This document shows positions 553 through 60,515 of a stretch of DNA of 64,000 bases, piece by piece. The position numbers and the translations under genes were made by a program. The stretch spans positions 124,001-188,000 of the forward strand of contig JYOB01000006.1 in the NCBI GenBank assembly GCA_000955795.1. Reading direction: 5' to 3'. Every line of letters starts with the position of its first letter. The first letter of the stretch is position 1. The DNA is from Burkholderiaceae bacterium 26 (lineage in GTDB: Bacteria > Pseudomonadota > Gammaproteobacteria > Burkholderiales > Burkholderiaceae). The notes under the pieces were generated by a model. That model was not told the DNA's origin. It was given only the letters and a program-made list of their open reading frames with translations, and ran no database searches.

Positions 553-1266
553 TTATTCGCCCTCGCCGAGGATCTCGCGTGCCAGCGTCTCGCGTGAAGC
601 GTGCCGGACGTCGGTGCCCTTGACGATGTAGATAATAAACTCGGCGATGTTCTTGGCGTGATCGCCAATACGCTCGATGGCCTTGGCAATGAACAGCAGA
701 TCCAGCGCTACCGAAATCGTGCGCGGGTTCTCCATCATGTACGTGATGAGTTCGCGCATGAAGCCGCGGAATTCCTCATCGATGGCCTTGTCTTCCTGCA
801 GGATCGACAAGGCAGCAGCGGTGTCCAGGCGTGCGAAGGCGTCCAGTGCGTGACGCAGGATGGTCGCGGCCATCTCACCCGAACGTTCCACACCGGCGTA
901 GTTGAGCGCATGTGCCGACGGGTCTTGCATGATGCGCTTGGTGCGCTTGGCGATCTTCTCGGCTTCGTCGCCGGCACGCTCGAGGTTGGTGATGGTCTTG
1001 GAGATGGCCATCACCAAACGCAGGTCGCGAGCGGTCGGCTGGCGGCGCGCGATGATGTTGTTGCAATCGCTATCGATCTCGATCTCGAGCGCGTTGATTT
1101 CCAGCTCCACGGCCATGACTTGATCGCACATGGCGGTGTCGAAATTGGCCAGCGCACGCATGGCGCGTGCAATCTGTGCTTCCACCAGACCGCCCATCTG
1201 CAGCACCTTGGTGCTGATGGTGGTCAGGTCGGTGTCAAACTGCGATGACAGATGCTTCTCAGACAT
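553..1266 (-). CDS. phoU: Phosphate transport regulator PhoU
   Basis: Cytoplasmic helical-bundle protein that couples the PstSCAB transporter to PhoR and keeps the Pho regulon off when phosphate is abundant. It has 237 residues, normal for the family, and contains two repeats of the PhoU three-helix fold. The acidic metal-binding patches are visible as ERAGDEAEKIAK in the first half and ERIGDHAKNIAE in the second. The start MSEKHLSSQFD is typical of PhoU. It sits 40 bases after pstB and 23 bases before phoB, all on the minus strand. Confidence 0.95.
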   Translation of the reverse strand: MSEKHLSSQFDTDLTTISTKVLQMGGLVEAQIARAMRALANFDTAMCDQVMAVELEINALEIEIDSDCNNIIARRQPTARDLRLVMAISKTITNLERAGDEAEKIAKRTKRIMQDPSAHALNYAGVERSGEMAATILRHALDAFARLDTAAALSILQEDKAIDEEFRGFMRELITYMMENPRTISVALDLLFIAKAIERIGDHAKNIAEFIIYIVKGTDVRHASRETLAREILGEGE

Positions 1267-1306
1267 CGGTTTCTCCTTTTCGCTTCAGCGTCAGCGTTGT
1301 TGCAGG

Positions 1307-2098
1307 TCAGCCGAAGCGGCCGGTAATGTAGTCCTCTGTTTCTTTGCGCTGCGGCTTGATGAAGATCTTTTCGGTATCGCCGAACTCGATCAGCTCACCC
1401 AGGTACATGTACGCCGTGTAGTCGGAGCAACGCGCCGCCTGTTGCATGTTGTGCGTAACGATGACCACCGTGTAGTCGTCTTTCAGTTCGGCGATCAGCT
1501 CTTCGATCTTGCCAGTGGAAATCGGGTCCAGCGCCGAGCACGGCTCGTCCAGCAGCAGCACTTCAGGGCGGATGGCAATGCCGCGCGCAATACACAGACG
1601 CTGCTGCTGCCCGCCCGACAGGCCGTAGCCCGACTGGTTGAGCTTGTCCTTCACTTCATTCCACAGCGCCGCCTTGGTCAGTGCCCATTCCACGCGGTCG
1701 TCCATTTCGGAGCGCGACAGGCGCTCGAACAGCTTCACACCGAACGCGATGTTGTCGTAGATCGACATCGGGAACGGCGTCGGCTTCTGAAACACCATGC
1801 CGACCTTGGCACGCAACAGAGCGATGTCCATGCGCGAGGTCAGCAGGTTCTCGCCGTCCATGTTGATCTGGCCTTCGGCGCGCTGCTCCGGATACAGCGC
1901 GTACATCTTGTTGAACGTACGCAGCAGAGTCGACTTGCCGCAGCCCGACGGGCCGATGAACGCCGTTACCTGCTTCTCGGGAATCTGCATCGAGATGTTC
2001 TTCAGCGCGTGGAACTTGCCGTAGTAGAAGTTCAGGTCGCGAACATCAATCTTCGGGCTTTGCGTGCGCACTTCGAGGGACGTAGCAGTCATGATCAT
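1307..2098 (-). CDS. pstB: Phosphate ABC transporter ATPase PstB
   Basis: ATP-hydrolysing subunit of the high-affinity phosphate importer on the inner face of the membrane. Walker A GPSGCGKS is at residues 49-56, signature LSGGQQQR and Walker B VLLLDEP follow, and the C-terminus is TGRFG as in other PstB proteins. I chose the ATG at 2098 because its ATGA overlaps the pstA stop by 4 bases. A second ATG two codons later (2092) is also possible. The longer open frame reaching back to 2188 overlaps pstA and is not needed. The protein has 263 residues; the family usual is about 260. Confidence 0.96.
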
Positions 2099-3021
2099 TT
2101 CTTGGTGAACAAGGCACGCGCAAGGACGTTCAGCCCCAGCACACCCAGCGTAATCAGGAACACCCCGGCCCAGGCCAGTTGCTGCCACTCGGGGAACGGG
2201 CTCATCGCAAACTTGAAGATCACGGTCGGCAGCGTGGCCACCGGCTGATTCAGATCCAAGCTCCAGAACTGATTGTTCAACGCGGTAAAGAGCAGCGGCG
2301 CGGTTTCACCGGCAATGCGGGCGATGGCCAGCAGCACACCGGTAATCACGCCGGCATACGACGCCTTGAGCGTAATCGACAGGATCATCTTCCACTTGGG
2401 CGTGCCAAGCGCCATGGCGGCTTCACGCATCGCGTTGGGCACCAGGTTCAGCATGTTCTCGGTGGTGCGCACCACGATCGGAATCTGAAGCAGTGCCAGC
2501 GCAAGCACGCCCGCGATACCCGAGAAGTGCTGCACGCGGGCTACCACGACGGCATACACGAACAGGCCGATCACGATGGACGGCGCCGACAGCAGGATGT
2601 CATTGATGAAGCGCGTCGCGCTCGCAAGCATTGAAGTCTTGCCGTACTCGGCCAAATAGATGCCCGCCAGGATGCCCAGCGGCGTGCCGATCAGCGTGGC
2701 CATGCCCACCAGCAGGAACGACCCTGCGATAGCGTTGGCGAGGCCGCCTCCCGGCGTATCGGGCGCCGGCGTCATCTCGGTGAAGAGCGACATCGACAAG
2801 CCGCCCACACCCAGCGAAAGCGTGGTCCACAGAATCCATGCCAGCCACACCAGGCCGAAAGCCATGGCGGCAAGCGACAGCGACAGCGCAATCCCGTTGA
2901 CGTTGCGGCGGCGGGCCTGCAGGCGCGCCTTGATCTTTTCAGAGTCGGGGCGGACGGCAGGAATGGAAGACGTACGCATGGTGTTGGGTCTCATAGCGTC
3001 AGGCAGATCGCGTTGGTTCAC
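2095..3021 (-). CDS. pstA: Phosphate ABC transporter permease PstA
   Basis: One of the two membrane channel subunits of the Pst phosphate importer. It has 308 residues with a cytoplasmic N-terminal extension of about 40 residues, then about six hydrophobic segments. The permease EAA-type loop reads [15 protein letters not shown]. The start is a GTG at 3021 whose GTGA overlaps the pstC stop by 4 bases. An ATG ten codons later (MRPNTMR) is an alternative. Overlaps with pstC upstream and pstB downstream indicate translational coupling. Confidence 0.93.
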
Positions 3022-3992
3022 TTTTGACCCTCGCTCTTCTGCAAGCGCAGAAGCAGCAACTTGGAGGCCGCCAGCACGATGAACGTGATGACGAACAGGA
3101 TCAAGCCCAGCTCCATGAGCGCCGCGGTATGCAGACCCTGCCCCGCTTCCGCAAATTCATTGGCCAGCGCCGACGTGATGCTGTTACCCGGCGAGAACAA
3201 CGACGGATCGGACAGCAGGTTGGTGTTGCCGATCACGAACGTCACGGCCATGGTCTCGCCCAGAGCGCGCCCCAGGCCCAGCATCACACCGCCGATCACA
3301 CCCGCCTTGGTGTAAGGCAGCACCACGTTCCACATGACTTCCCACGTCGTGCAGCCCACGCCGTAGGCAGATTCCTTAAGCAGCGTCGGCGTGATCTCAA
3401 ACACGTCGCGCATCACCGCCGAGATGTACGGGATGATCATGATCGCCAGAATCACCCCAGCGCACAGCAGGCCGATGCCGATCGGCGCACCTTGGAACAG
3501 CGCTCCGATGACCGGGATCTTGCCGACGGTCGCGGCCAGCGGCTTTTGAAAGTATTCGCCGAAGATCGGCGCAAACACGAGCAGACCCCACATGCCGTAC
3601 ACGATGGACGGCACTGCAGCGAGCAGCTCGATGGCGGTACCCAGCGGTCGGCGCAGCCACGCCGGCGACAGCTCGGTCAAGAACAGGGCAATGCCGAAGC
3701 TCACAGGCACGGCAATGATGAGCGCGATCAGCGACGTGACCAGGGTGCCGTAGACCGGCACCAGCGCGCCATAGATGTCGGAGGGCGGATCCCACTCTGA
3801 ATTCCACAGGAACGACAGGCCGAATTTCTGAATCGTCGGCCAGGAGCTGATGATGAGCGAGATGATGATGCCGCCCAGCAATAACAGCGTAACGATTGCG
3901 GCAAGGCGGGTCAGACCGCCGAACACCAGGTCGCCAAAGCGGCTGGGTGCTCGCATACGGGAAGCGCCAGAGGAATCAGAGAGCGTGGCCAT
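3018..3992 (-). CDS. pstC: Phosphate ABC transporter permease PstC
   Basis: Second membrane subunit of the Pst phosphate importer. It has 324 residues with a first membrane segment near 30-50 and about five more. The permease coupling loop is visible around [18 protein letters not shown], and the conserved [16 protein letters not shown] stretch is present. The start ATG is followed by MATLSDSSG. It is preceded by a 117-base gap after pstS that holds a strong hairpin (4031-4066) and overlaps pstA by 4 bases. Confidence 0.95.
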
Positions 3993-4030
3993 GAGGGAAA
4001 CCGGTCAGCCGAGAAAGAAGCTTTTGAAAT

Positions 4031-4066
4031 GGTGCGGGCGGCCGATTCATACCGCCCTCCCGCACC
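4031..4066 (-). terminator. Hairpin between pstS and pstC, likely attenuator or mRNA stabiliser
   Basis: GGTGCGGG at 4031-4038 pairs with CCCGCACC at 4059-4066, extended inward by GGGCGG/CCGCCC. There is no run of T after it in the pstS direction, so full termination is unlikely. Such hairpins commonly allow more binding protein than permease to be made from one operon; this role is inferred here. Confidence 0.5.
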
Positions 4067-4109
4067 TTGTGCTGCACCTACTTACGAACCCTTATGCAGC
4101 AGGCAACCA

Positions 4110-5144
4110 TCATTGGTTGTAGACAACCTTGCCCGATGCATCCTTCACGCTCGACTTCCACGTTGCGCGGATCTGGTTCTTCACAGCGTCCGGCAGCGGC
4201 ACGTAGTCCAGGCTCTTGGCAGCGTCATCGCCCCCTTTGTAGGCCCAGTCGAAGAACTTCATGACTTCAGCGCCCTGCGCCGGCTTGGCTTGCGTCTTGT
4301 GCAGCAGGATGAACGTTGCACCAGCGATCGGCCATGCGTCCTTGCCCGGTTCGTCCGTCAGGATCTGGTAGTACGACTTGCTCCACTCGGCGCCAGCGGC
4401 TGCAGCCTTGAAGGCTTCAGCGGTCGGTTGAACGGTGGCACCCGACTTGTTTTGCAGGTTCACGTACGTCATCTTGTTCTGCTTGGCATAGGCGTACTCA
4501 ACGTAGCCAACCGCACCACCCAGACGCTGCACGAAAGCGGCCACCCCTTCGTTGCCCTTGCCACCCGTACCGGTCGGCCAGTTCACGGTCGTGCCTTCGC
4601 CCACCTTGCTCTTCCACTCAGTATTCACCTTCGACAGGTAGTTCGTGAAGATGAACGAGGTGCCCGAACCGTCAGCACGGCGCACCACCAGGATGTCCTG
4701 GTCCGGCAGCTTGGCCTTCGGATTCAGCTTGGCAATGGCCGGATCATTCCACTTCTTGATCTTGCCCAGGTAGATGTCACCCAGCAACTGGCCGTTCAGC
4801 GTCAGCTCGCCCGGCTTCACGCCCGGCAGGTTGATCACAGGCACCACGCCGCCGATCACGGTCGGGAACTGGATCAGGCCATCCTTGTTCAACTCCTCGT
4901 CCTTCAGCGGCATGTCCGATGCGCCGAAGTCGACGGTCTTGGCGGTGATCTGCTTGATGCCGCCCGACGAGCCGATACCTTGGTAGTTCACCTTGGTTTG
5001 GGTCGCCTTGTTGTAGTCGGCCGCCCACTTGTTGTAGACAGGTGCCGGGAACGTCGCGCCTGCGCCAGTGATGTCTACAGCAAATGCGGCACCAGCGAAA
5101 GCGAGTGCAGCCACGCCAGCGATTGCGGATTTGACCAGTTTCAT
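4110..5144 (-). CDS. pstS: Periplasmic phosphate-binding protein PstS
   Basis: High-affinity phosphate-binding protein that delivers phosphate to PstCAB. It has 344 residues with a clear signal peptide ([22 protein letters not shown], cleavage near residue 22-23). Mature-protein motifs are [25 protein letters not shown] and [14 protein letters not shown], which hold the phosphate-contacting serines, arginine and aspartate. The C-terminus ends in VVYNQ. It is the first gene of the operon and lies just downstream of two Pho boxes (5171-5188, 5209-5226), so PhoB activation on phosphate starvation is very likely. Confidence 0.97.
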
Positions 5145-5170
5145 GAGTTCTCCAGAGGAGCGGTTGAGCG

Positions 5171-5188
5171 ATGACAGATTTTTGACAT
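5171..5188 (-). promoter_or_regulatory. Pho box, proximal to pstS
   Basis: On the minus strand this reads ATGTCAA-AAAT-CTGTCAT, two 7-base repeats separated by 4 bases, close to the CTGTCATAAATCTGTCAT consensus. It lies 26 bases before the pstS start codon and has no AT-rich -10 element at the right distance downstream. It therefore overlaps the transcript start expected from the distal box. Confidence 0.75.
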
Positions 5189-5192
5189 CCGA

Positions 5193-5226
5193 ACTTTAGG
5201 CGGCTTGGATGACAGTTCTGTGACAA
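5193..5226 (-). promoter_or_regulatory. Distal Pho box with -10 element of the pstS promoter
   Basis: The Pho box at 5209-5226 reads TTGTCAC-AGAA-CTGTCAT on the minus strand. After a 10-base gap a TAAAGT sequence (5193-5198) can serve as -10, the spacing seen in PhoB-activated promoters where the Pho box replaces -35. The predicted transcript start falls near 5186, inside the second box. Confidence 0.75.
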
Positions 5227-5280
5227 CACGAAAACTTCTCATAACTGACCTGCAGAGCATGAAAGTCGACCCACGCGCAT

Positions 5281-5308
5281 AAAAAAAGCGGCCCGAAGGC
5301 CGCTTTTT
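5281..5308 (-). terminator. Rho-independent terminator after glmM
   Basis: The stem AAAAAGCGGCC / GGCCGCTTTTT with a short CGAA loop is followed on the minus strand by seven T. It lies 28 bases after the glmM stop and insulates pstS. Confidence 0.9.
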
Positions 5309-5335
5309 GACTCGCTTACTTGACCGGGCAGGAAC

Positions 5336-6679
5336 TTACTGCAACGTCGCAGCAAGACGCTCCGCATGTTGGTTGGCCAGCTCTGCGTCCTGCGCTTCCA
5401 CCATCACGCGGACGACCGGCTCCGTACCCGACGGACGAATCAGCACCCGGCCCTTGCCGTCAAGCTCTGCCTCGCTGGTCTTCAGCGCCGCTTGCAGGCC
5501 AGCGTGCGATTTCCAGTCGAAACCCTTTTCGACCCGCACGTTGATGAGCTTTTGCGGGAACAGGCGCACGCCGTCCAGCATCTGGTCCAGCGTCTGGCCA
5601 CTGCGACGCAATGCCGCAAGCACCTGCAGCGCCGAGATGATGCCGTCGCCCGTGCTGTGCTTGTCCAGGCAGAGCAAGTGGCCCGACCCTTCGCCGCCCA
5701 GCAGCCAACCATTCTTCTTCAGCTCTTCCAGCACGTAGCGGTCGCCCACCTTGGCGCGCACGAACTCGACGCCCTGCGCCTTGAGCGCCAGCTCCACGGC
5801 GAGATTGGTCATGAGCGTGCCGACCGCACCCGGCACCGTCTGGCCCGCCGCAAGGCGCGCCTGCACCATGACGTAGAGCAGCTCGTCGCCGTTATAGAGG
5901 CGGCCATTGCGGTCCACCACCTGCAGGCGGTCGGCATCGCCGTCGAAGGCCAGGCCAATGTCGGCCCCATGCTCACGCGTGGCCTCGACCAGCTTGCCCG
6001 GCGCCGTCGCGCCATAGCCGTCGTTGATGTTGCGGCCATTCGGCTGGTTGCCGATCGACACGACGTCCGCACCCAACTCATGGAAGACGTGCGGCGCGAT
6101 GTGATAGGCCGCGCCATGCGCACTGTCCAGCACGACCTTCATACCGAACAGGTTCAAATCGCTGGGGAACGTGCTCTTGCAGAACTCGATGTAGCGGCCA
6201 GCGGCATCCTCGATACGACGGGCACGACCCAGCGCGTCTGAGGCCGCGTACACCATCGGTTTTTCCAGCTCGGCCTCGATCTGCAACTCGGTTTCGTCCG
6301 GCAGCTTGTCGCCGGTGGCCGAGAAGAACTTGATGCCGTTGTCGTAATACGGGTTATGTGACGCAGAAATCACGACACCTGCCGACAGCCGCAGTGCACG
6401 CGTGAGATACGCCACACCCGGCGTGGGCAGCGGCCCGCTCATCAAGACGTCAACACCCGCTGCGGTAAAGCCCGCTTCCAACGCGGCTTCCAGCATGTAG
6501 CCCGACAGGCGCGTGTCCTTGCCGATCAGCACGGTGGGACGGCCATGGCCATGCGCCTCTCCGCCGTGGGCCAGCACGCGGCCTGCTGCATAACCAAGGC
6601 GCAACACGAAATCCGGCGTGATCGGGCTTTCGCCGACACGCCCACGGATGCCGTCGGTGCCGAAATACTTCCTGGACAT
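5336..6679 (-). CDS. glmM: Phosphoglucosamine mutase GlmM
   Basis: Converts glucosamine-6-phosphate to glucosamine-1-phosphate for UDP-GlcNAc, peptidoglycan and lipopolysaccharide synthesis. It has 447 residues, typical of the family. Visible motifs are the N-terminal YFGTDGIRG, the active-site phosphoserine S107 in ISASHNP, the Mg-binding loop DGDADR near residue 245, and the sugar-phosphate loop RPSGTEP near the C-terminus. It follows folP in the same direction, the common ftsH-folP-glmM order of proteobacteria. A canonical terminator follows it. Confidence 0.97.
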
Positions 6680-23264: not shown

Positions 23265-23711
23265 ATGCAGGAAGTCACCGTCTATTCCGATGGCGCATGC
23301 AAAGGCAACCCCGGCCTTGGCGGCTGGGGCACCGTGCTCGTCTCGGGCAGCCACGAAAAAGAACTCTTTGGCGGCGAAGCGCTGACCACCAACAACCGCA
23401 TGGAGCTGATGGCCGTGATCGAGGCGTTCCGTGCGCTCAAGCGGCCGTGTCGGGTGCAGGTGTACACCGATTCGCAATACGTGCAGAAAGGCATCAGCGA
23501 ATGGTTGGCTGGCTGGAAAGCGCGCGGCTGGAAGACGGCCGACAAGAAGCCGGTCAAGAACGACGACCTCTGGCGCACGCTCGACGAACTCGTCACCGGC
23601 CATGACGTGAGCTGGCATTGGGTCAAGGGCCATGCCGGCCACCCCGGCAACGAGCGCGCCGATGCGCTGGCCAACAAAGGCGTGGAGATGGCGCGCCAGG
23701 CAAGCGCCTGA
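23265..23711 (+). CDS. rnhA: Ribonuclease HI
   Basis: Cleaves RNA in RNA-DNA hybrids. It has 148 residues with the four acidic catalytic positions visible: D in [12 protein letters not shown] in [13 protein letters not shown] in [11 protein letters not shown] and D in [10 protein letters not shown], with the basic handle region [11 protein letters not shown]. It starts 40 bases after the methyltransferase on the same strand. In many relatives rnhA is directly followed by dnaQ; here dnaQ is about 9.7 kb away. Confidence 0.97.
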
Positions 23712-23729
23712 CGCGCCCCGGGCGCTCCC

Positions 23730-24239
23730 TCACTTGCCCGCGCAGCGCTGCGTGGGGATCTGCGGCGCGTTTGCGGCGGTGGTCGTGACGTATTGCGGCT
23801 TGCCGTCCTGCGCATAAACCAGCCGCAGCGGGCCGCGCTTGGAAAGACCATCGTCGATATCGGCCTGCAACAGGCCTGTCTGCGCCCATAAATCACCACC
23901 GATGCTGCGCTTCTGCATCATGACGGGGCGATTTGTGCCCGGCTCCCAGTTGGCTTGGCGCTCGGGCACGTAGCGGTTGGGCAGCGTGCCGTAGGCGTAA
24001 AGCTGATTCAGCGTGTCAGCCAGGTAGCGCCCGGCTTGATCGTTGAACGTCGGCAGATCCTGGTTTCCGAGTTCGCTGCGGATGCGCTGCGCCTCCGCCG
24101 TGCAGCTTGGCGCGACATTGTCGGCCGCGCGGGCGTAGGACACGCCGATCGCCACGGCTGCGGCGGCAAGCCAGGTCAGCACGCGATACAGGCGGCGCGG
24201 ACGGGTGGTTGGAATCACGGACATCGGTTCGGTATGCAT
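23730..24239 (-). CDS. Exported protein of unknown function, next to lysozyme
   Basis: Protein of 169 residues that I do not recognise. A twin-arginine-containing basic stretch (RPRRLYRVLTW) precedes a hydrophobic core, and signal peptidase cleavage is likely near residue 39 (SYARA-AD), so it should be periplasmic. The mature part has two cysteines, near its start (PSCTAE) and end (TQRCAGK), which could form a disulfide. A GGAG ribosome-binding site supports ATG 24239. It is 34 bases after the lysozyme gene on the same strand, so the two probably act together. A regulator, inhibitor or helper of the lysozyme is possible but unproven. Confidence 0.7.
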   Translation of the reverse strand: MHTEPMSVIPTTRPRRLYRVLTWLAAAAVAIGVSYARAADNVAPSCTAEAQRIRSELGNQDLPTFNDQAGRYLADTLNQLYAYGTLPNRYVPERQANWEPGTNRPVMMQKRSIGGDLWAQTGLLQADIDDGLSKRGPLRLVYAQDGKPQYVTTTAANAPQIPTQRCAGK

Positions 24240-24273
24240 GCGAGCTTCTCCGGTGAAATAACGTGGTAGTGAC

Positions 24274-24726
24274 TCAGGACAGGAACAACTTGCGTTCGGC
24301 CTGACGACGCTTCGTCAGCCCCTTGAGCGGCTTGCCGCCTGCCTTGTCCCACAGCAGGAACTGGTTGGCCGCGCCGGCGTAGTCGCCGGCGTTGAGCTTG
24401 CGCAGCAGCGTTGACGAGCGCAGCCGCCCCGCTCCCAGGTTGAAGACGAAGGACGCCAGCGCGTCGAACTGACCCTGCGTGATCGACACGCGCACGGCCT
24501 TGGCAATGCCTTGCTCGGTGTCGGCGAGGTCCTTGCGCAGCAGCGCTTCGGCCTGCTGCTGCGAGATCGGACCGTTGAAGGTCTCGCCGGGCCGAATCAG
24601 GTGGCCATAACCGATCGTCGGCTTGCCAACCGCATCCAGATACGTCGACAGACGCAGTCCTTCCGACTCCTTGATCAGCGCGAGGCCTCGCTCGCCGGTG
24701 GTGCGCGGGTTGTGCTCAGTGCTCAT
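24274..24726 (-). CDS. GH24 (T4-type) lysozyme
   Basis: Predicted to cleave the MurNAc-GlcNAc bond of peptidoglycan. Protein of 150 residues with the GH24 catalytic triad E22-D31-T37 in EGLRLSTYLDAVGKPTIGYGH, the same spacing as T4 lysozyme (E11, D20, T26), followed by FNGPISQQQAEALL and ALASFVFNLGAG. There is no signal peptide or signal-anchor helix and no recognisable holin nearby. ATG 24726 has AGGAG seven bases upstream and overlaps the end of the DUF2589-type gene by 11 bases. Phage origin of the family is likely, but the context is not a prophage. Confidence 0.88.
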   Translation of the reverse strand: MSTEHNPRTTGERGLALIKESEGLRLSTYLDAVGKPTIGYGHLIRPGETFNGPISQQQAEALLRKDLADTEQGIAKAVRVSITQGQFDALASFVFNLGAGRLRSSTLLRKLNAGDYAGAANQFLLWDKAGGKPLKGLTKRRQAERKLFLS

Positions 24727-25492
24727 CGCTCTTCTCCTGGGGCGTGCTGGTGTTATCGCGGCCATCGGAGCCGCCGGCATTCGACTGCACGGGCCTTGGC
24801 ACCAGCCGATTCGTGTATTCGTCAATCAGCCGCATCACGGCTTCTGGCGGCTGCAGCGCCGTGAACTTCATCTCGATGTCGATGTGCTCGCTGTCGCGGC
24901 CCGTATCCCGTTTGGAATGCGGTGCAAGCGAGACGTAGAACCGGCCAACGCCGCCCGCGGCTGCACCGTGTAAAGGCAGGGCCTCGGCGATGTCGCTGCG
25001 CACGGTCATGTTCACCGTCATTTCATCGAGCGCGATGCCGCGCGGCATCGCCAGCGAGACCAGCGGCAGCGCCAGCCGGTGCTGACTGTCGAGCGCAAGC
25101 TCAACCTCGCGGGCGACCAGCGTGCCGCTCTCGTCGGCATCGAAAAACTGGTCGAGCAGCGCGGTGTATTGCTGCGCAAGCATCTGGTTGGCAGACGCGG
25201 CGGCGTGCTGCATGCCGCGCGTGATGTCGTCGAGCGTCAGGCTATTCAAGCCCGGATGACCGTGGCTGTTGCTGCCACCACCGGTGCCACCGCCCGGCGG
25301 CGACGAACCTGGTGGCGACGGCGGTGGCGCATCAGGCGCAGTCTCTGGAAACGGCGCTGCATCGGAAGGCCCAGCGGGCTGCGCTGACACAGGTGATGCT
25401 GGTGGCGCGCTGGTGGGCGGCGCTGGCGGTGTGGCGGGCGCTGACGACGCACGGTCATCATCACGCCCGCGGCGGCTGAAGAGATTGAACAT
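24716..25492 (-). CDS. DUF2589-type protein with proline-rich N-terminal region
   Basis: Protein of 258 residues. Residues 15-75 are rich in Pro, Ala, Ser and Gly and look disordered. The rest resembles DUF2589: a helix around LDDITRGMQHAAASANQMLAQQ, beta-rich segments (LALPLVSLAMPRGIAL, VGRFYVSLAPHSK, HIDIEMKFTAL), then a C-terminal helix PPEAVMRLIDEYTNRLV. The last part matches PPEALMRVMEFLTDAA in the next gene, so the two are paralogues. No enzyme motif, signal peptide or membrane helix is visible. The start at 25492 lacks a clear ribosome-binding site. It overlaps the lysozyme gene. Confidence 0.75.
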   Translation of the reverse strand: MFNLFSRRGRDDDRASSAPATPPAPPTSAPPASPVSAQPAGPSDAAPFPETAPDAPPPSPPGSSPPGGGTGGGSNSHGHPGLNSLTLDDITRGMQHAAASANQMLAQQYTALLDQFFDADESGTLVAREVELALDSQHRLALPLVSLAMPRGIALDEMTVNMTVRSDIAEALPLHGAAAGGVGRFYVSLAPHSKRDTGRDSEHIDIEMKFTALQPPEAVMRLIDEYTNRLVPRPVQSNAGGSDGRDNTSTPQEKSDEH

Positions 25493-25601
25493 GGTGTCGG
25501 GTCGGTCGGATCGATCAGATCAATAGGCGGCGCGCGGCAGGCACGCACCGATCAGGACACCGGCCGTGGGGAGGCCGGCCGGCATCCATCACCGTGGCGG
25601 C
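25493..25601 (-). other. Spacer with GC-rich hairpin between the two DUF2589-type genes
   Basis: The 109-base spacer contains CCGGCC/GGCCGG arms near 25560-25583. There is no T run. It may reduce expression of the downstream genes relative to the first DUF2589-type gene. Confidence 0.4.
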
Positions 25602-26270
25602 TTAGGGATTGGCCGGCGCCGGGGCCGGCGCGTTGCCGCCCGCGGGCGCCTTTTCGCCGATCATCGTGCCGTCGGTCGGCGTGGCCGGCAGCGGCTTGAC
25701 GTCGTTCTCCTTGCCCTTGACGACCACCGGCTTGGTTGCCGCGTCAGTCAAAAATTCCATCACGCGCATCAGCGCTTCCGGCGGGTTCTGACGCTTGACC
25801 TGGGTGTGGAAGGAGTACTTGGCACGCGTGTCGGTGCTGCGGGTCTGCTCCGACTTATGCGAGGCGCGCCCCGAGACCGACACGCTGAACGGGCCCCAGC
25901 CGAGCTTGGCCTGGAACGACCCTTCTGCCTCGGTGCTGGACGACGATTTCTCCGACTGCGAAATCTCCAGCTCGAAGTCGATCGTGCCTTCCTCGATGGC
26001 GATCACCGGATGCACGACCGCACACAGCAACGGAATGCGCATCGTTTTCTGGATCGTGCCCTGCGACACCCCCTTCTCGTCGACGATGGTTTCGTCGTAG
26101 TCAAATTGCACCGCAACGGCTTTGCCGTTCTGAATACACACCTGCAGCAGAAAATCCGCATAGGATTTTGCCGCCGAGGTTTGCGCTGCGATCATCGCCT
26201 GCAGCGGCGCAGAGATCATCTTGTCGATCGGCAGCGCATTGATAACCGACCCGATAAGTCCGTTGTCCAT
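25602..26270 (-). CDS. DUF2589 family protein
   Basis: Protein of 222 residues with the DUF2589 pattern: N-terminal helix KMISAPLQAMIAAQTSAAKSY, then beta-rich segments (VAVQFDYDETI, MRIPLLCAVVHPVIAIEEGTIDFEL, WGPFSVSVSGRASHKSEQ), a helix PPEALMRVMEFLTDAA, and a Pro/Ala-rich tail. No known enzymatic residues, signal peptide or membrane segment. The start ATG has AGGAG eight bases upstream. It is the first gene of a four-gene run (two DUF2589-type, lysozyme, exported protein) and diverges from an atypical LuxR-type regulator. The biochemical function of DUF2589 is unknown to me. Confidence 0.8.
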   Translation of the reverse strand: MDNGLIGSVINALPIDKMISAPLQAMIAAQTSAAKSYADFLLQVCIQNGKAVAVQFDYDETIVDEKGVSQGTIQKTMRIPLLCAVVHPVIAIEEGTIDFELEISQSEKSSSSTEAEGSFQAKLGWGPFSVSVSGRASHKSEQTRSTDTRAKYSFHTQVKRQNPPEALMRVMEFLTDAATKPVVVKGKENDVKPLPATPTDGTMIGEKAPAGGNAPAPAPANP

Positions 26271-26518
26271 TTAAAACTCCTCACATTGAATTATTTGGAC
26301 GCACAGGTTTGTGTGCCCGAATCCAAAGTAAGAGTTTTTCCTGCGGGGTTCGATGCCTCGAAAGTCCCAGCCAAGGCCACGGAACAGCGGCCCAGTACCT
26401 GACGATAGGCTGCCCGTGACTTTCGGCACTGAACTTCCGTTTCAATGCATCCGGATCGATCCCGCTCTACAAAATAATCGGTTTCACCGAAAACAATTAA
26501 CTGAAGTACGAGGGGTCG
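26271..26518. promoter_or_regulatory. Divergent control region between the DUF2589 operon and the LuxR-type regulator
   Basis: The 248 bases are more AT-rich at both ends. Dyads include GCACA-GGTTT-TGTGTGC near 26300, GGATCGATCC near 26453 and CGGT-TTC-ACCG near 26480, just before the regulator gene. An AAAATAAT stretch beside the last dyad could be the -10 of the regulator gene. These are candidate operator sites for the neighbouring regulator. Confidence 0.45.
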
Positions 26519-27178
26519 ATGAATATTCTGGTAATCGATAGCTTGCCGCTTTTTGCGGCAGGTGTGTCCAATGTATTGAATGCACTCGACGCGCAGGGTG
26601 TGTTTATCGATACTCACTACGCCGTGCAAATCGGGCCGGCTTGCCGGCAAGCCGAACCCAGTGCTGTCGTGATGGAATGGAGCGCACAGGACGACGACGC
26701 ACGGCAGCGCCTGTCGGAGTTGAAAGCGGTGTTGCCGGAAGTGCCCGTGCTACTGACGGTGCAAGCTGTCGGCCGGCATGTGGTGGGCGACGCGCTACGC
26801 TTCGGCGCGGCCGGCGTGGTCGACCGGCAAGCCACGGCCGACGTTCTGCTCGAAGCCCTGCTGCGCATTACCTCAGGCGCGGTCTACTTGCCGCCCATCA
26901 GTAATCTGTTTCCCGACGATCCGCGCCAAAGTTCAGGAGAAAGCCCGGCCGAACTCTGGCGCCGACTCACGCCGCGGCAACATGAGGTGCTGCAACTGCT
27001 TGCAGAGGGCAAGTCCAACAAACAGATTTGTCGCGTGCTCAACGTAGCTGAAGGCACCATCAAAAACCATCTGTACGCGCTGTTCCGGCAAATTGGCGTC
27101 AACAACCGGACCGAGGCCGCGCTCTGGCTCTCGCGCTGCAAGGCGAGCCTTGTCCGCCTGCAGATGTGTGCGATGTAG
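26519..27178 (+). CDS. NarL/LuxR-family regulator with degenerate receiver domain
   Basis: Protein of 219 residues. The N-terminal 115 residues have the receiver fold (ILVIDSLPLFAAGV, VPVLLTVQAVG, ALRFGAAGVVDRQATADVLLEAL). However, the second acidic residue is S8, the phospho-acceptor position is E53 (VVMEWSA), and the usual Lys near 102 is absent. The C-terminal LuxR helix-turn-helix is intact (LTPRQHEVLQLLAEGKSNKQI, VAEGTIKNHLYALFRQIGV, about 149-200). It therefore probably works without phosphorylation. It diverges from the DUF2589-lysozyme genes and is likely their regulator. Confidence 0.88.
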   Translation: MNILVIDSLPLFAAGVSNVLNALDAQGVFIDTHYAVQIGPACRQAEPSAVVMEWSAQDDDARQRLSELKAVLPEVPVLLTVQAVGRHVVGDALRFGAAGVVDRQATADVLLEALLRITSGAVYLPPISNLFPDDPRQSSGESPAELWRRLTPRQHEVLQLLAEGKSNKQICRVLNVAEGTIKNHLYALFRQIGVNNRTEAALWLSRCKASLVRLQMCAM

Positions 27179-27351: not shown

Positions 27352-27630
27352 ATGGAAATCATCGAGTTCCACACCAGCCCGCCACGCTATTGCGCCGCGG
27401 ATCTCACGCTCACCTGCACCGCCAGCGTCGACGGCACCCCGGCGTGCTATGCGGTGACGGCAGAAGCGCTCGAAGAACATTTCGGCGCCCGCTCATGGCG
27501 GCAGGAGGACCTGCTGCAAGCCATGGAAAGCCACCGCGGCACCATTGAAGACATGGCGCGCTCACTGTTCAAGCTGACGGACTCGCACAACATCGTGCTG
27601 CGTAGCGGCCATTTCCGCTTCGGGATGTAG
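27352..27630 (+). CDS. DUF1488 family small protein
   Basis: Protein of 92 residues starting MEIIEFHTSPPRY. The middle pattern TASVDGTPACYAVTAEALEEHFGA and then LLQAMESHRGTIEDMARSLF and SGHFRF fits DUF1488, small cytoplasmic proteins of unknown function. The ATG is 174 bases after the regulator gene on the same strand. GGAGG lies ten bases upstream. A link to the regulator is possible but the gap is large enough for its own promoter. Confidence 0.7.
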   Translation: MEIIEFHTSPPRYCAADLTLTCTASVDGTPACYAVTAEALEEHFGARSWRQEDLLQAMESHRGTIEDMARSLFKLTDSHNIVLRSGHFRFGM

Positions 27631-27720: not shown

Positions 27721-29229
27721 CTAGTCAGGTTTGCACTCGTGCTTCATCTCGCGTCGCCCGTCTTCGTAGACTACCTCCAGCCGGCACGTAAAGCCCCATA
27801 GGCGTACGACGTGCCGCAGCATCTCTTCGTAGTTCGGCCCAAGCGGGCGGCGGCTGCTCTGCAAATGGCGCAGCGTCAATGAGCGATCTCCGCCCACGTC
27901 TACGTTGGTCACCTGGATGTTGGGTTCGATGTTCGAGAGATCGTACTGCCCTGCCAACAACTCGCGGATCTTGCGATAGCCATCGTCGTCATGGATGGCG
28001 GTGACGCGCAGCTTGGCGTCGCGGTCATCGTCGAGCACGGAGAACAGCTTCAACTCCCGGATCACGCGCGGCGAGAGGAATTGCAACAGGAAGCTCTCGT
28101 CCTTGAAGTTGCGCATGGCGAAGTCGAGTGTCTTCTGCCAATCACTACCGGCAATCTCGGGCGCCCAGCGGTAGTCCTCTTCTTCCGGCGATTCGCAAAT
28201 GCGCCGGATGTCCTGGAACATCAGAAAACCCAGCGTGTAAGGGTTCAGGCCACTGTAGTACGGGCTATTGAACGGCGGCTGATAGATCACGTTGGTATGC
28301 GCCTGAAGCAGCTCGAGCATGAACGCATCGTTGACGAGTTTTTCGTCGTACAGCTTGTGCAGGATGGTGTAGTGCCAGAAGGTGGCCCAGCCTTCGTTCA
28401 TCACCTTGGTCTGGCGCTGCGGATAAAAGTACTGCGCGATCTTGCGCACGATGCGCACGATTTCTCGTTGCCACGGCTGCAACTTGGGCGCGTTCTTCTC
28501 AATGAAGTACAGCAGGTTCTCTTCCGGCTCGGGCGGAAACTGCGGATCAGGCTCCGGCACGTCGTCAGCGGTTGCCAGCACGCGTGCCCGGTGCGTGGGC
28601 AGCGTACGCCACAGGTCGTTCACCTGCGCTTCAAGGTATTTCTCGCGCTCCGCCTGGCGGGCCTGCTCTTCGTTGATCGACAGCTTCTTGGGCCGTCGAT
28701 AACGATCGACACCGTAGTTCTGCAACGCGTGGCAGGAGTCGAGCAACAGTTCCACCTCCTGCTCGCCATAGCGCTGCTCGCATTCAGCCACGTAGTTCTT
28801 GGCGAAGAGCAGGTAATCGACGATGGCGTCCGCGTTCGTCCACGTCCGGAACAGGTAATTGCCCTTGAAGAAGGAGTTGTGGCCATAGCAGGCATGCGCG
28901 ATGGTCAGCGCCTGCATCGGCATCGTGTTCTCCTCCATCAGATAAGCGATGCAGGGGTTCGAGTTGATGACGATCTCGTACGCCAGCCCCATGAGGCCGC
29001 GCTGGTAGCCGCGCTCCGAAGCAAGGAAGTGCTTGCCGTATGACCAATGGTTGTAGCCCAGCGGCAAGCCCGACGACGCATACGCATCGAGCATCTGCTC
29101 GGCGGTGATGATCTCGATCTGGTTCGGATAGGTGTCCAGGCCGAACTCTGCGGCAATCTGGGCGATGCTTTGGTCGTAGCGCCTGATCAGCTCGAAGGTC
29201 CATTCCGAGCCCGTAGATAGGTAGGCCAT
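27721..29229 (-). CDS. SpoVR family protein
   Basis: Protein of 502 residues, the normal size for SpoVR/YcgB proteins, named from a Bacillus sporulation gene but widespread in non-sporulating proteobacteria. Signatures include GSEWTFELIRRYD near the start, YGHNSFFKGNYLFRTWT near 130 and MNEGWATFWHYTILHKLYD near 285. Biochemical role is unknown. ATG 29229 (MAYLSTGSEW) is preferred to an upstream in-frame start at 29280. It is the third gene of the prkA-DUF444-spoVR group, a conserved stress and stationary-phase trio. Confidence 0.93.
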   Translation of the reverse strand: MAYLSTGSEWTFELIRRYDQSIAQIAAEFGLDTYPNQIEIITAEQMLDAYASSGLPLGYNHWSYGKHFLASERGYQRGLMGLAYEIVINSNPCIAYLMEENTMPMQALTIAHACYGHNSFFKGNYLFRTWTNADAIVDYLLFAKNYVAECEQRYGEQEVELLLDSCHALQNYGVDRYRRPKKLSINEEQARQAEREKYLEAQVNDLWRTLPTHRARVLATADDVPEPDPQFPPEPEENLLYFIEKNAPKLQPWQREIVRIVRKIAQYFYPQRQTKVMNEGWATFWHYTILHKLYDEKLVNDAFMLELLQAHTNVIYQPPFNSPYYSGLNPYTLGFLMFQDIRRICESPEEEDYRWAPEIAGSDWQKTLDFAMRNFKDESFLLQFLSPRVIRELKLFSVLDDDRDAKLRVTAIHDDDGYRKIRELLAGQYDLSNIEPNIQVTNVDVGGDRSLTLRHLQSSRRPLGPNYEEMLRHVVRLWGFTCRLEVVYEDGRREMKHECKPD

Positions 29230-29346
29230 GCTCGTTCCCGTTGGTCTATCACACAGGGTCACAGGTGGCGTGCTCGCCATGGCACACGCTGTCTCTGCCC
29301 GGCGGCAGTGCCCAGCTGGGAGCAGCTCCTGCGGCCCGATCAGCGA

Positions 29347-30609
29347 TCAGGCTGCGCGCTTCTGAAACAGCTCGTGCAGCACCGGATAGATTTCGTCCGC
29401 CTTGAGAATGCGCTGCATCGCGAAGTTCTCGTGCCCAGCCTTCAACGTAAGATACTCCTCCCACAGGTTCTGCGGCTCCGTCGAAACCACCTCAACATAG
29501 GCGTAATACTGGGTGAGCGGCAGGATCGACTCGCGCAGGATCTTCGCGCACAGCTCCGAGTCCCCTGCCCAGTTGTCGCCATCCGAAGCCTGCGCGCAAT
29601 AGATGTTCCATTGGCTTGGCGAATAACGCTCCTGAATCACTTCCGCCATCAGTTTGAGTGCACTTGACACAACAGTGCCGCCCGACTCGCGTGAGTGGAA
29701 AAAATCCTCCTCATCCACTTCCTTGGCCACGGTGTGGTGGCGGATGAAGACGACGTCGATGCGTTCGTAGTTCCGCTTCAGGAACAGATAAAGCAGCATG
29801 AAGAAACGCTTGGCCAAGTCCTTGCGCGACTCGTCCATCGAGCCGGATACGTCCATCACGCAGAACATCACCGCCTGCGCCTGCGGACGCTTGCGCAGCA
29901 CGCGGTTGTTGTAGCGCAGGTCGAGCTTTTCTATGAACGGCACGCGATCCAGGCAAGAGCGCAGATGTCGCATCTCCTTCATCAGCTCTTGCGCGCGCAC
30001 GCTGTAGGGGCCGTCGTTTTCCAGCTCCTCGTTGTACTCGCCTTCCAGCTCATGCAGACGGCGCTGATACGGGCTGGACAATGCAATGCGGCGACCGAGC
30101 GAGCTGCGCATCGTCCGCAGAATCGACAGGTTGGACGGCGTGCCATCGAGCGAAAAACCCGCACGTACCTTGCGCACCTCAGCGATCTTGGCCAAGCTGC
30201 GCTTGGCAAGATCGGGCAACGCCATGTCTTCGAAAAAGAAGTTCAGGAAGTCCTCGCGCGAGAGCGTAAAGATGAAATCATCTTCGCCCTCGCCCGAGTC
30301 GCTGGCTTGCGAACCGGAGCCGCCGCTGCCCTGCTGCGGGCGGTCGAAGCTGTCGCCGCGAATGAACTCTTTGTTGCCCGGGTGAACGCCTTCTCGGCGC
30401 CCCCCCGAGCCGTGGTGGAACATGGGCTCGGAGATGTCCTTGACCGGAATGGACACCTGCCCGCTCTGCTCGATGTCCATGATCTTGCGACCCGTCACCG
30501 CTTTGGCCACCGCGCGGCGGATCTGGTCTCGGTAACGCTTGATGAAGCGTTGCTTGTTGACGGTGCTTTTGCCGCCACCGTTCTCCCGCCGATCAATGAT
30601 CGTGCCCAT
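29347..30609 (-). CDS. DUF444 family (YeaH-like) protein with VWA-type domain
   Basis: Protein of 420 residues, homologous to E. coli YeaH. It starts MGTIIDRRENGGGKSTVNKQRF, typical of the family. A Gly/Ser-rich spacer covers about 90-110. A von Willebrand A-type domain has the metal-site motif DVSGS at 253-257. YeaH is known to be functionally linked to the kinase YeaG/PrkA in nitrogen-starvation and stress responses. Here it lies 54 bases after prkA and 117 bases before spoVR on the same strand. No membrane segment. Confidence 0.93.
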   Translation of the reverse strand: MGTIIDRRENGGGKSTVNKQRFIKRYRDQIRRAVAKAVTGRKIMDIEQSGQVSIPVKDISEPMFHHGSGGRREGVHPGNKEFIRGDSFDRPQQGSGGSGSQASDSGEGEDDFIFTLSREDFLNFFFEDMALPDLAKRSLAKIAEVRKVRAGFSLDGTPSNLSILRTMRSSLGRRIALSSPYQRRLHELEGEYNEELENDGPYSVRAQELMKEMRHLRSCLDRVPFIEKLDLRYNNRVLRKRPQAQAVMFCVMDVSGSMDESRKDLAKRFFMLLYLFLKRNYERIDVVFIRHHTVAKEVDEEDFFHSRESGGTVVSSALKLMAEVIQERYSPSQWNIYCAQASDGDNWAGDSELCAKILRESILPLTQYYAYVEVVSTEPQNLWEEYLTLKAGHENFAMQRILKADEIYPVLHELFQKRAA

Positions 30610-30663
30610 GTGACTGCCCTCGATTGGAAGTTCGCTGGGTGCCTTTTCCCTCTCCTTATCTCC

Positions 30664-32586
30664 TTAAGATGACTTCCTGACGCGCAGGTACCACTCCACC
30701 AGCAAGCGCACCTGCTTCTGGGTGTAGCCCTTCTCCACCATGCGGTTGACGAAGTTCTCGTGCTTCTCCTTGTCGTCGTGCGACGACTTGGCATTGAACG
30801 AGATCACGGGCAGCAGATCCTCCGTGGTCGAGAACATCCGCTTCTCGATCACCGCGCGCAGCTTCTCGTAGCTGGTCCAGACGGGATTCTTCCCCCCATT
30901 CCTGGCCCGCGCCCGCAGCACGAAATTGACGATCTCGTTGCGGAAGTCCTTCGGGTTGGAAATGCCCGCCGGTTTTTCCACCTTCTCCAACTCATCGTTC
31001 AACGCGCTGCGATCGAGAATTTCGCCAGTGTTCGGGTCGCGATATTCCTGATCCTGAATCCACAGGTCGGCAAACACCACGTAGCGGTCGAAGATGTTCT
31101 GCCCGTACTCCGAATAGGATTCCAGATACGAGGTTTGAATCTCCTTGCCGATGAACTCCACGTACGGCGACGTGAGGTATTCCTTGATATAGGACATCAG
31201 CTTGGATTCCGTCTCCGGCGGGAACTGCTCACGCTCGATCTGCTGCTCGAGCACATACAGCAAGTGCACCGGATTGGCCGCCACCTCCGTCCCATCGAAG
31301 TTGAACACCTTCGAAAGCACCTTGAAGGCAAAGCGTGTAGACAAGCCCGTCATGCCCTCGTCGATGCCGGCAAAGTCGCGGTACTCCTGATACGACTTCG
31401 CTTTCGGGTCGACATCTTTCAGGCTCTCGCCGTCGTACACGCGCATCTTCGAGAAGATGTTGGAATTCTCGGGCTCCTTGATGCGTGTGAGCACCGCGAA
31501 CTGGGCCATCATCTTCAGCGTGTTCGGCGCGCACGGGGCCGCGGCCAGCGAGCTGTTGCGCAGCAGCTTGTCGTAGATCTTCACCTCGTCCGACACGCGC
31601 AGGCAATACGGCACCTTGACGATGTAGATGCGATCAAGGAACGCCTCGTTGTTGCGATCGGACTTGAAGCTCTGCCACTCCGCCTCGTTCGAGTGCGCCA
31701 GGATGACGCCATCGAACGGGATCGCGCCAAAGCCCTCCGTGCCCTTGTAGTTGCCTTCCTGCGTGGCCGTCAGCAACGGGTGCAACACCTTGATCGGCGC
31801 CTTGAACATCTCGACAAATTCGAGCAAGCCACGGTTGGCCAAGCACAGCCCGCCCGAATACGAATACGCATCGGGATCGTCTTGCGGATAGTCCTCCAAC
31901 TTGCGGATGTCGACCTTGCCCACCAGAGACGAAATGTCCTGATTGTTTTCGTCGCCCGGCTCCGTCTTGGAAATCGCAATCTGCGACAGCACCGACGGAT
32001 GCAGCTTCACCACGCGGAAGCGCGTGATGTCGCCGTTGAACTCATGCAGCCGCTTGACCGCCCAAGGCGAGGCAATCGTGCTCAGATAGCGCCTCGGGAT
32101 GCCGTAATCCTCCTCCAGAATCTTGCCGTCTTCGTCGGGCGAGAAGAGCCCGAGCGGGGACTCGTGAATGGGCGAGCCCTTGAGCGCGTAGATGGGAATC
32201 TGCTCCATCAGCGCCTTCAACTTCTCGGCAAGCGAGGATTTGCCTCCGCCCGGAGGCCCGAGCAGATAAAGGATCTGTTTGCGCTCCTCAAGACCTTGCG
32301 CGGCATGCTTGAAGAAGGAAACGATCTGCTCGATCGTGTCCTCCATGCCGTAGAACTCCCGGAAAGCCGGATAGATCTTGATGACTTTGTTGAAGAACAA
32401 TCGTGACAGCCGAGGATCGTGGTGAGTGTCCACCAGTTCGGGCTGACCGATTGCGGTGAGCATGCGCTCAGCGGCAGTCGCATAGGCGGTCGAGTCTTTT
32501 TTGCAGATATCCAGATACTCCTGGATGCTGTACTCGTCCTCTTTGCGAGCTTCAAAACGCGTTGCGTAGTGGCGGAAAATATCCAT
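30664..32586 (-). CDS. prkA: PrkA/YeaG serine protein kinase
   Basis: Protein of 640 residues. An AAA-like N-terminal domain has Walker A GPPGGGKS at 110-117. The C-terminal PrkA region with remote kinase similarity follows from about residue 380. The E. coli homologue YeaG and Bacillus PrkA are linked to stress adaptation and protease-type AAA activity. ATG 32586 (MDIFRHYATRFEARKEDEYS) has GGGGGAG upstream and gives the conserved family length. An upstream start at 32625 is not needed. It is the first gene of the operon with the DUF444 and SpoVR genes. Confidence 0.95.
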   Translation of the reverse strand: MDIFRHYATRFEARKEDEYSIQEYLDICKKDSTAYATAAERMLTAIGQPELVDTHHDPRLSRLFFNKVIKIYPAFREFYGMEDTIEQIVSFFKHAAQGLEERKQILYLLGPPGGGKSSLAEKLKALMEQIPIYALKGSPIHESPLGLFSPDEDGKILEEDYGIPRRYLSTIASPWAVKRLHEFNGDITRFRVVKLHPSVLSQIAISKTEPGDENNQDISSLVGKVDIRKLEDYPQDDPDAYSYSGGLCLANRGLLEFVEMFKAPIKVLHPLLTATQEGNYKGTEGFGAIPFDGVILAHSNEAEWQSFKSDRNNEAFLDRIYIVKVPYCLRVSDEVKIYDKLLRNSSLAAAPCAPNTLKMMAQFAVLTRIKEPENSNIFSKMRVYDGESLKDVDPKAKSYQEYRDFAGIDEGMTGLSTRFAFKVLSKVFNFDGTEVAANPVHLLYVLEQQIEREQFPPETESKLMSYIKEYLTSPYVEFIGKEIQTSYLESYSEYGQNIFDRYVVFADLWIQDQEYRDPNTGEILDRSALNDELEKVEKPAGISNPKDFRNEIVNFVLRARARNGGKNPVWTSYEKLRAVIEKRMFSTTEDLLPVISFNAKSSHDDKEKHENFVNRMVEKGYTQKQVRLLVEWYLRVRKSS

Positions 32587-59501: not shown

Positions 59502-60515
59502 ATGATCCCGTTCGGCTTCGCGCATTGGCTGCGCCCGCGTGCGGCACCGCAGCCACAACCAATCCCGCCCCTCGTTGAACAACTGCGTGAAGAATGCGAA
59601 GCGATGGCCCGCTACGCCCTGCATCACGGCTTGCCAGTCGCGCCAGAACTCATCGCCCAGCTCGGCCCGCTCATTGACAGGCAGATGCCACCGCAGGCCA
59701 CGCCGCACCACGCGCTGGCAGCCATCCACCGCAAACTTGCGGCCGCCATCGCACCGGCTACCCCGCAGGCCGTCACGCTGCTCGACGCACAGCATCGCAG
59801 CGATCACCCATTCCCCTGGCTCGGTCCTGTGCCGTTGATCCGGCTGCTGACCAGCGCTGCGATCGCCTTCCTGATCGCCGTGATTGCCACCGGCATGTCG
59901 CCCGACGTATCGAGCGCAAACATCGACCGGGGCTTCCTCGATTCGGACGGCGCGCCCCTGTTATGGAACACGCTGTTCCTGCTGTTCTGCGCGGGGCTGG
60001 GCGCGTCGTTTGCCACGCTGTTTCAGGCACATCGCTATGTGGCCGCAGCCACCTACGACCCGAAGTACGACGCTTCCTACTGCGCACGGTTGATCCTCGG
60101 CGTGATTGCCGGATTGATCCTCGTTGAGATGCTGCCGGCGCATCTGTTCGACGGGGGCAGCATGCACAACTTCGGCAAACCGACGCTGGCGATGCTGGGC
60201 GGCTTCTCTGCCACCGCTGTGCACCGGTTGCTGCAGCGGCTGGTGGATGCGCTCGAAACACTCGTACGCGGTGACCGCTCGGCCGATGCCGACGCTGCCA
60301 TGCAGACCTACCGCGCGCGTGCCGCCAGCGAGCGCACGCAATGGCAAAGCGAATTCGCCGCCAACCTGATCGATCTGCAGCAGTCGTTCGACAGCAACGC
60401 CTCACCCGAGGCGATGCGCCAGCGGCTGGCCGACTTCACGCGCGCCATGCTGGCCGCCACCGATTCGCCCGCCTCTACACCTCCGCCTCCCTCCAACCGG
60501 CCATCCAAGGAGTGA
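59502..60515 (+). CDS. Membrane protein of unknown function
   Basis: Protein of 337 residues. The N-terminal 105 residues are soluble and Pro/Ala-rich. Then come three hydrophobic segments (RLLTSAAIAFLIAVIATG near 108-126, LLWNTLFLLFCAGLGASF near 148-166, LILGVIAGLILVEML near 190-206). A helical cytoplasmic C-terminus with coiled-coil tendency (about 230-320) and a Pro-rich tail complete it. I recognise no family. ATG 59502 has GGGAGG upstream. It ends 4 bases before the DUF4239-type gene, so the two likely work together. Confidence 0.75.
   Translation: MIPFGFAHWLRPRAAPQPQPIPPLVEQLREECEAMARYALHHGLPVAPELIAQLGPLIDRQMPPQATPHHALAAIHRKLAAAIAPATPQAVTLLDAQHRSDHPFPWLGPVPLIRLLTSAAIAFLIAVIATGMSPDVSSANIDRGFLDSDGAPLLWNTLFLLFCAGLGASFATLFQAHRYVAAATYDPKYDASYCARLILGVIAGLILVEMLPAHLFDGGSMHNFGKPTLAMLGGFSATAVHRLLQRLVDALETLVRGDRSADADAAMQTYRARAASERTQWQSEFAANLIDLQQSFDSNASPEAMRQRLADFTRAMLAATDSPASTPPPPSNRPSKE

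Follow-up and report, generated by a model that had tools for sequence, protein, structure and literature searches.

A chromosomal DUF2589 and endolysin cassette in a Burkholderiaceae bacterium, a candidate for protein release resembling type 10 secretion

The type 10 secretion system (T10SS) consists of a holin and a peptidoglycan hydrolase with the substrates encoded close by, as set out in the consulted sections of three accounts (PMC10109510, PMC9527704, PMC10101115). In those sections the ChiWXYZ system of Serratia, the Salmonella chitinase system and typhoid toxin with TtsA have a leaderless endolysin and exported proteins placed in one regulated locus, and the lysis cassette of Yersinia entomophaga (holA, pepB, rz, rz1, RoeA), according to the consulted part of its description, likewise joins an endolysin cassette to a regulator of its own for exoprotein release. 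We describe here a locus with the same general features in a 64,000-nucleotide stretch from Burkholderiaceae bacterium 26 (contig JYOB01000006.1, positions 124,001 to 188,000), referred to below as the window. Two genes of the DUF2589 family (PF11655), a GH24 lysozyme gene and a gene for an exported protein lie in a row on the minus strand, with a LuxR-type gene transcribed divergently. We consider it probable that they constitute a chromosomal, endolysin-centred protein-release cassette, similar to type 10 secretion, in which DUF2589 would be an undescribed core.

DUF2589-A (25602-26270, minus strand, 222 residues) matches PF11655 with E 3.2e-25 and 89.7 bits, and DUF2589-B (24716-25492, minus strand, 258 residues with a proline-rich N-terminus) with E 4.3e-13 and 50.3 bits, the cut-off being 23. 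The phage-type GH24 lysozyme, or endolysin (24274-24726, minus strand, 150 residues; PF00959 E 5.3e-46, phrog_7 endolysin 1.7e-60), is encoded by a gene overlapping that of DUF2589-B by 11 bases, and the exported protein (23730-24239, minus strand, 169 residues) matched no family. The LuxR/NarL-type regulator (26519-27178, plus strand; GerE E 4.8e-18, NarL in the PDB E 9.1e-14) is separated from the operon by 248 bp (26271-26518, from the sequence), where a search for a sigma-70 consensus site found none. Profile matches and gene calls confirm the gene positions, families and overlap given in an initial annotation of this DNA. Purifying selection acts on all five genes. Against ten congeneric loci the ratio of nonsynonymous to synonymous substitution rates is 0.00-0.06 for DUF2589-A, 0.13-0.23 for DUF2589-B, 0.00-0.14 for the GH24 enzyme, 0.03-0.07 for LuxR and 0.09-0.24 for the exported protein, compared with 0.02-0.09 for the neighbouring rnhA, and a gene-calling artefact is ruled out by this selection. 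The 5.68-Mb genome holds a single GH24 match and the same gene order recurs in other genera, hence the linkage is more than chance.

Recurrence was assessed by searching PF11655 in 16 genomes of the genus, 398 of the family and 398 of the phylum, with the window's own genome counted, together with 14 control genomes. Positive genomes number 12, 40 and 9, respectively, mostly with two genes, and none of the 14 controls is positive. The neighbourhoods then compared came from 32 of the 39 family genomes that are positive besides the window's own, and from all eight such genomes of the phylum sample; genes were called with a home-made caller, which may err in individual starts and in small genes. 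A GH24 gene lies in the DUF2589 operon in 27 of 33 same-family loci, window included, a GH19 gene in three, and a divergent LuxR gene is present in 26. A clear wall enzyme occurs in four of the eight loci from the phylum sample, namely GH19 by cluster (L085, L090), Amidase_3 (L089) and, on the divergent strand, a pesticin-type lysozyme (L087).

Scanning 84,980 species genomes yielded 277 relatives, the best 80 of which were analysed; at least four of these loci duplicate members of the other sets (L104, L113, L120 and L128 are L084, L056, L054 and L055, respectively). Counting same-strand genes within eight positions of DUF2589, 56 of the 80 loci carry a wall-enzyme gene: 28 GH19, 17 GH108, seven a PG_binding_1 protein and four single cases, these being a VgrG3-type muramidase with LysM, a PF11860 muramidase, an amidase and a PG_binding_1 protein with a weak lysozyme match. 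Excluding the seven PG_binding_1 proteins leaves 49. Within about 8 kb of DUF2589 the GH19, GH108 and PG_binding_1 clusters occur at 28, 17 and seven loci, and a small protein of 88 residues at 72, a secreted protein of 136 residues (cluster 3) at 39, a LuxR/response-regulator cluster at 30 and an AraC-type cluster, one member of which was tested, at 19. The small cassette, in which two DUF2589 proteins go with a wall enzyme and an exported protein, is widespread among bacteria and undescribed. A neighbourhood search had been set beforehand as the check on the earlier proposal of a recurring, regulated peptidoglycan-cutting unit, and the frequencies of GH24, LuxR and wall-enzyme genes bear that proposal out.

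The specificity of the linkage was assessed with profiles of the GH19, GH108 and GH24 clusters. Seeded from genes near DUF2589, these match 46 of the 491 proteins lying no more than 2 kb from it in the 80 loci, versus one of 540 beyond 3 kb; for 35 non-redundant loci the values are 17 of 204 and 0 of 226 (Fisher 2e-6). A profile of the M12 cluster gives seven near and none far in the 80 loci. When 150 of the 204 proteins near DUF2589 and 150 of the 226 distant ones were scanned against Pfam, GH19 (8), GH108 (4), GerE (5), response regulator (6) and astacin-like (5) domains were identified among the near proteins, and response regulators (3) among the far. GH19, GH108, GerE and astacin are absent from the 25 far families listed of 249, where families with one or two members may escape.

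The wall enzymes are interchangeable. GH19, GH24, GH108 and the pesticin type belong to separate Pfam families, several of which share the lysozyme fold; amidases do not. On a quick tree of 91 DUF2589-A proteins the enzyme labels cluster by clade, and among labelled rows they change 11 times, GH19 alone accounting for at least four changes by starred branches, with long branches leaving some placements unsure. DUF2589 is therefore retained when the wall enzyme is swapped for one of another family.

The GH24 sequence holds E22-x8-D31-x5-T37, a spacing that we take to be that of the catalytic triad (E-x8-D-x5-T). The nearest solved structure is 9kbq (E 2.6e-42), and neither a signal peptide nor a transmembrane (TM) segment was found in its 150 residues. 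The receiver domain of the LuxR protein matches below the cut-off and, in line with the non-phosphorylatable receiver of the initial annotation, the phospho-acceptor Asp is replaced by Glu53 and the Lys site is Arg. Glu occupies the acceptor position in all 13 same-family regulators aligned (window included; 26 are present), and of the 26 regulators taken from other loci 24 keep Asp.

Comparison with T10SS reveals both likenesses and differences. The leaderless hydrolase is there, the GH24 enzyme having no TM stretch, and an exported protein lies nearby as a putative substrate. GH108 is among the enzymes of T10SS and DUF2589 cassettes alike; TtsA is presumably of this class. The window operon differs from the T10SS described in the sections consulted in that neither a holin nor a spanin gene was found in it, and in having cargo candidates that are nuclease-type, not chitinase. 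No TM stretch was detected in the five operon and regulator proteins, whose Kyte-Doolittle means over 19 residues all stay below 1.6, and a search for a holin candidate among open reading frames of at least 30 residues at 23701-26520 found no TM frame except one, antisense at 24623-24973 (plus strand). This frame, inside the operon, encodes 116 residues with one strongly hydrophobic stretch and is probably spurious. The cassette is not classed as T10SS here, since the search of the operon yielded no holin. The DUF2589 pair, the 88-residue protein and a protein with three TM segments (3-TM protein) considered below are not named in the consulted sections of the T10SS accounts (PMC10109510, PMC9527704, PMC10101115). 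The Y. entomophaga cassette, by contrast, has a holin and spanins, and DUF2589 is not named in the part of its description consulted. An interchangeable endolysin is also a property of the phage lambda-type lysis cassette; the present one differs in being chromosomal, with conserved flanks and no operon holin. EndoU and RNase A Pfam domains are found both in CdiA-CT polymorphic toxins and in relatives of the operon, where they form free-standing secreted proteins behind an endolysin. The literature searched (endolysin with EndoU, RNase, toxin or immunity cargo; bestrophin-like with endolysin; DUF4239) contained no account of this system.

We envisage that the LuxR protein switches the operon on and that the two DUF2589 proteins, after synthesis in the cytoplasm, would assemble an opening, probably together with a partner in the membrane, the 3-TM protein for instance. 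The opening would admit the leaderless GH24 enzyme to the periplasm, where it would cut the wall, and periplasmic proteins exported by Sec might then be released, either without lysis or by the lysis of a few cells. A holin-family gene at a Luteibacter DUF2589 locus and a phage contig (L201, below) with the pair near endolysin and holin matches fit this reading. This points to an undescribed route of endolysin export and release with no obvious holin, and DUF2589, to which no function is assigned, gains a testable role through wall enzymes of several families.

Candidates for release are found among the exported proteins. That of the window has a Kyte-Doolittle peak of 1.51 at residue 20, the signal peptide being read by eye. 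The family has 20 members in the compared loci, the window's included, each within a DUF2589 operon, and two Cys are invariant in the 14 members aligned. A PDB search with the window protein (P0004) alone or with a same-family profile (A7) gave no match. L210, of the enteric type, gives matches to binase, at best E 3.1e-9, and to barnase, and hhalign joins the window and enteric types (Prob 95, E 3.6e-8). At what we take to be the positions of the barnase catalytic residues, the 14 aligned members have Q, L, A or S in place of Glu, and never His at the His position. On these alignments the window's exported protein is probably a distant barnase-like pseudo-enzyme. The probable kinship with barnase, the interchangeable wall enzyme and the co-occurrence of the 3-TM gene were not part of the initial annotation.

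In relatives, genes of exported nuclease families are present in the operons, and the link of DUF2589 with nuclease-type exported proteins extends across many Proteobacteria and into a few further phyla. The second secreted gene of the enteric-type operon (L208-L210) is RNAse_A_bac (PF18431, 1.2e-8). The order there (about 1258-6421) is GH24, DUF2589-A, DUF2589-B, a second GH24, the barnase-like gene, two TM genes, the RNase-A-like secreted gene and, opposite, LuxR; what we take to be an integrase-like gene follows. A secreted EndoU-type gene is present in nine of the 80 DUF2589 operons, eight from Pseudomonas and one from Rhodospirillales (L148, L149, L156, L157, L162, L166, L175, L178, L181; tested for L148, PF14436 6e-15). 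It is followed by an 85-residue gene of no known family, whose position suggests an immunity function. EndoU- and RNase-A-like secreted genes close some DUF2589 operons and, of the functions first proposed, lend support to the release of a cargo. Genes of the endonuclease/exonuclease/phosphatase family near DUF2589 or 3-TM/endolysin loci (L105:2815-3639, L220:5372-6103, L235:12199-12564) are possibly another kind of exported nuclease.

The 3-TM protein (59502-60515, plus strand, 337 residues with three hydrophobic stretches) is a candidate membrane partner by co-occurrence. Its gene lies 33 kb from the operon and is followed by a bestrophin-like gene (60520-61323, plus strand, 267 residues) that matches the cluster of L057_4, a homologue with PF14023 at E 1.8e-49. 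The protein is 75% identical to L057_3, which adjoins the DUF2589 operon of another genus, and has no match in PHROGs. In the genus the operon and the 3-TM gene occur together in 12 genomes and are both missing from the other four of the 16. Within the family the gene is present in 31 of 40 DUF2589-positive versus 16 of 358 negative genomes (Fisher 2e-26, ignoring kinship); in the phylum sample it is found in two of 398, one of them without DUF2589. Relatives occur in 10 of the 80 DUF2589 loci, including those of Granulicella and Azospirillum. Eleven of 17 loci with the 3-TM gene and no DUF2589 were compared. A gene of the GH19 cluster (tested for L219, 2.6e-12) follows the bestrophin-like gene in eight; five have the esterase and phasin-like genes a few genes away, two of them without GH19, and one has neither. 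The 3-TM gene is near GH19 even where DUF2589 is missing, so it travels with endolysins whether or not DUF2589 is there.

How DUF2589 might act is suggested by an AlphaFold2 model of the member L084, computed with 71 sequences, which has a mean predicted local distance difference test (pLDDT) score of 77.7 and consists in part of an N-terminal helix (18-48) and, at 107-140 and 143-176, two strands each about 34 residues long, the pLDDT at the hairpin tip being below 50. Hydrophobicity alternates along the hairpin, with negative lag-1 autocorrelation in 71 of 71 sequences and a mean lag-2 value of 0.42 versus -0.02 when shuffled. Such alternation is expected of any long beta-hairpin. In ten of 1106 neighbour proteins the alternation attains the tenth-percentile value for 118 A proteins, and eight of the ten are secreted cluster-3 proteins; the most pronounced beta alternation among the scanned neighbours belongs to that cluster (L114:9654-10064 and 38 other loci). 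The model weakly suggests that DUF2589-A carries a long amphipathic beta-hairpin like those of membrane-inserting pore formers. A bolder proposal, which we advance tentatively and think rather less likely than not to be right, is that DUF2589-A founds a family of soluble pore formers replacing the holin. The hairpins (tip GWGP in the window) would build a beta-barrel in the inner membrane, DUF2589-B would be a control element or partner, any leaderless endolysin might be exported, and the whole would make a new secretion class with swappable hydrolases and nuclease cargo.

Several observations weigh against a release cassette built on DUF2589. No wall enzyme was recognised in three of the 33 same-family loci, no clear one in four of the eight phylum-sample loci (L084, L086, L088, L091), and none on the same strand in 24 of the 80; these 24 include seven with an M12-like metallopeptidase, one with GH24 on the opposite strand and several cut by contig ends. 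The catalytic part of the seven PG_binding_1 proteins matched no named family. The 3-TM statistic takes no account of kinship, and the gene occurs without DUF2589 in 17 genomes. Lacking the barnase catalytic residues, the window's exported protein is doubtful as a toxic cargo. Fold searches with DUF2589-A gave nothing significant (best PDB E 0.2), and a Luteibacter DUF2589 locus includes a holin-family gene (phrog_2359, 3e-12), so that DUF2589 is present also where a holin is and need not be one itself. Finally, DUF2589 was named in the searched literature, as far as the sections consulted go, in one account, in which the related Archaeoglobus genes AF0414-AF0417 are up on lactate (PMC3949148).

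An origin in phage has also to be considered. An intact or recent prophage is ruled out, as the annotation had judged of an obvious remnant: no phage structural, packaging or integration genes were recognised beside the operon and the flanks are conserved. A scan of six window proteins against PHROGs placed the enzyme in lysis families and the regulator in helix-turn-helix families, with nothing else of note; the regulator's weak matches to the helix-turn-helix of the terminase small subunit are no better than E 0.04. Capture of a phage lysis cassette, retained for the programmed, altruistic lysis of a few cells and with no dedicated cargo, would account for the endolysin-type enzymes, for the holin at some loci and for a metagenomic phage contig, L201, where the DUF2589 pair is convergent to genes with endolysin-family (1.7e-13), holin (4e-5) and weak spanin matches. 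Metagenomic phage contigs L185-L207, of which L201 was the one scanned, carry the pair beside small TM genes, and 28 IMG/VR loci carry a DUF2589 relative. However, one DUF2589-A query among 50,697 named phage records gave a single match, and DUF2589 proteins P0001 and L084 are unmatched in PHROGs, with one match at E 0.045 for P0002 of the window. On the exported-gene side, moreover, the flanking genes do not differ among the 11 congeneric loci, and the secreted nuclease-family genes of relatives point to cargo. We regard altruistic lysis as unlikely, though likelier than the other alternatives.

Less probable still is a wall-remodelling or envelope-building device, in which DUF2589 would form an envelope structure and the hydrolase would only make room. 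It draws on the presence of DUF2589 in an archaeon, and on the esterase, phasin-like and subtilase genes that also adjoin the genes for DUF2589 or the 3-TM protein. Outside the genus, most same-family loci continue with genes for a PHB-depolymerase-like esterase (Pfam E 1.6e-4) and a phasin-like protein (E 0.012), both below cut-off, and for three paralogues of 205 residues. Secreted RNase domains of polymorphic-toxin type at operon ends are, however, hard to explain as parts of such a device. The three tandem paralogues, of no known family, are seen in L057-L063, L067, L068, L097-L101 and L103, mostly after the esterase and phasin-like genes. That the lysozyme is itself an antibacterial effector, with the exported protein as its immunity or guard, would suit the two invariant Cys of the protein directly behind the enzyme in the window and the secreted cluster-3 proteins of the wider set, yet is very improbable given an enzyme without an export signal and an exported protein missing, by gene calling, from 10 of the 27 GH24 family loci.

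The surroundings of the operon are stable within the genus. rnhA flanks it in 11 of 11 congeneric loci, and a DUF1488 gene (27352-27630; PF07369, 5e-16) adjoining the regulator is kept in all 11. Beside the operon, at 27721-32586, are three genes that we take to resemble SpoVR, YeaH/DUF444 and PrkA, and their clusters flank it in 10 of the 11.

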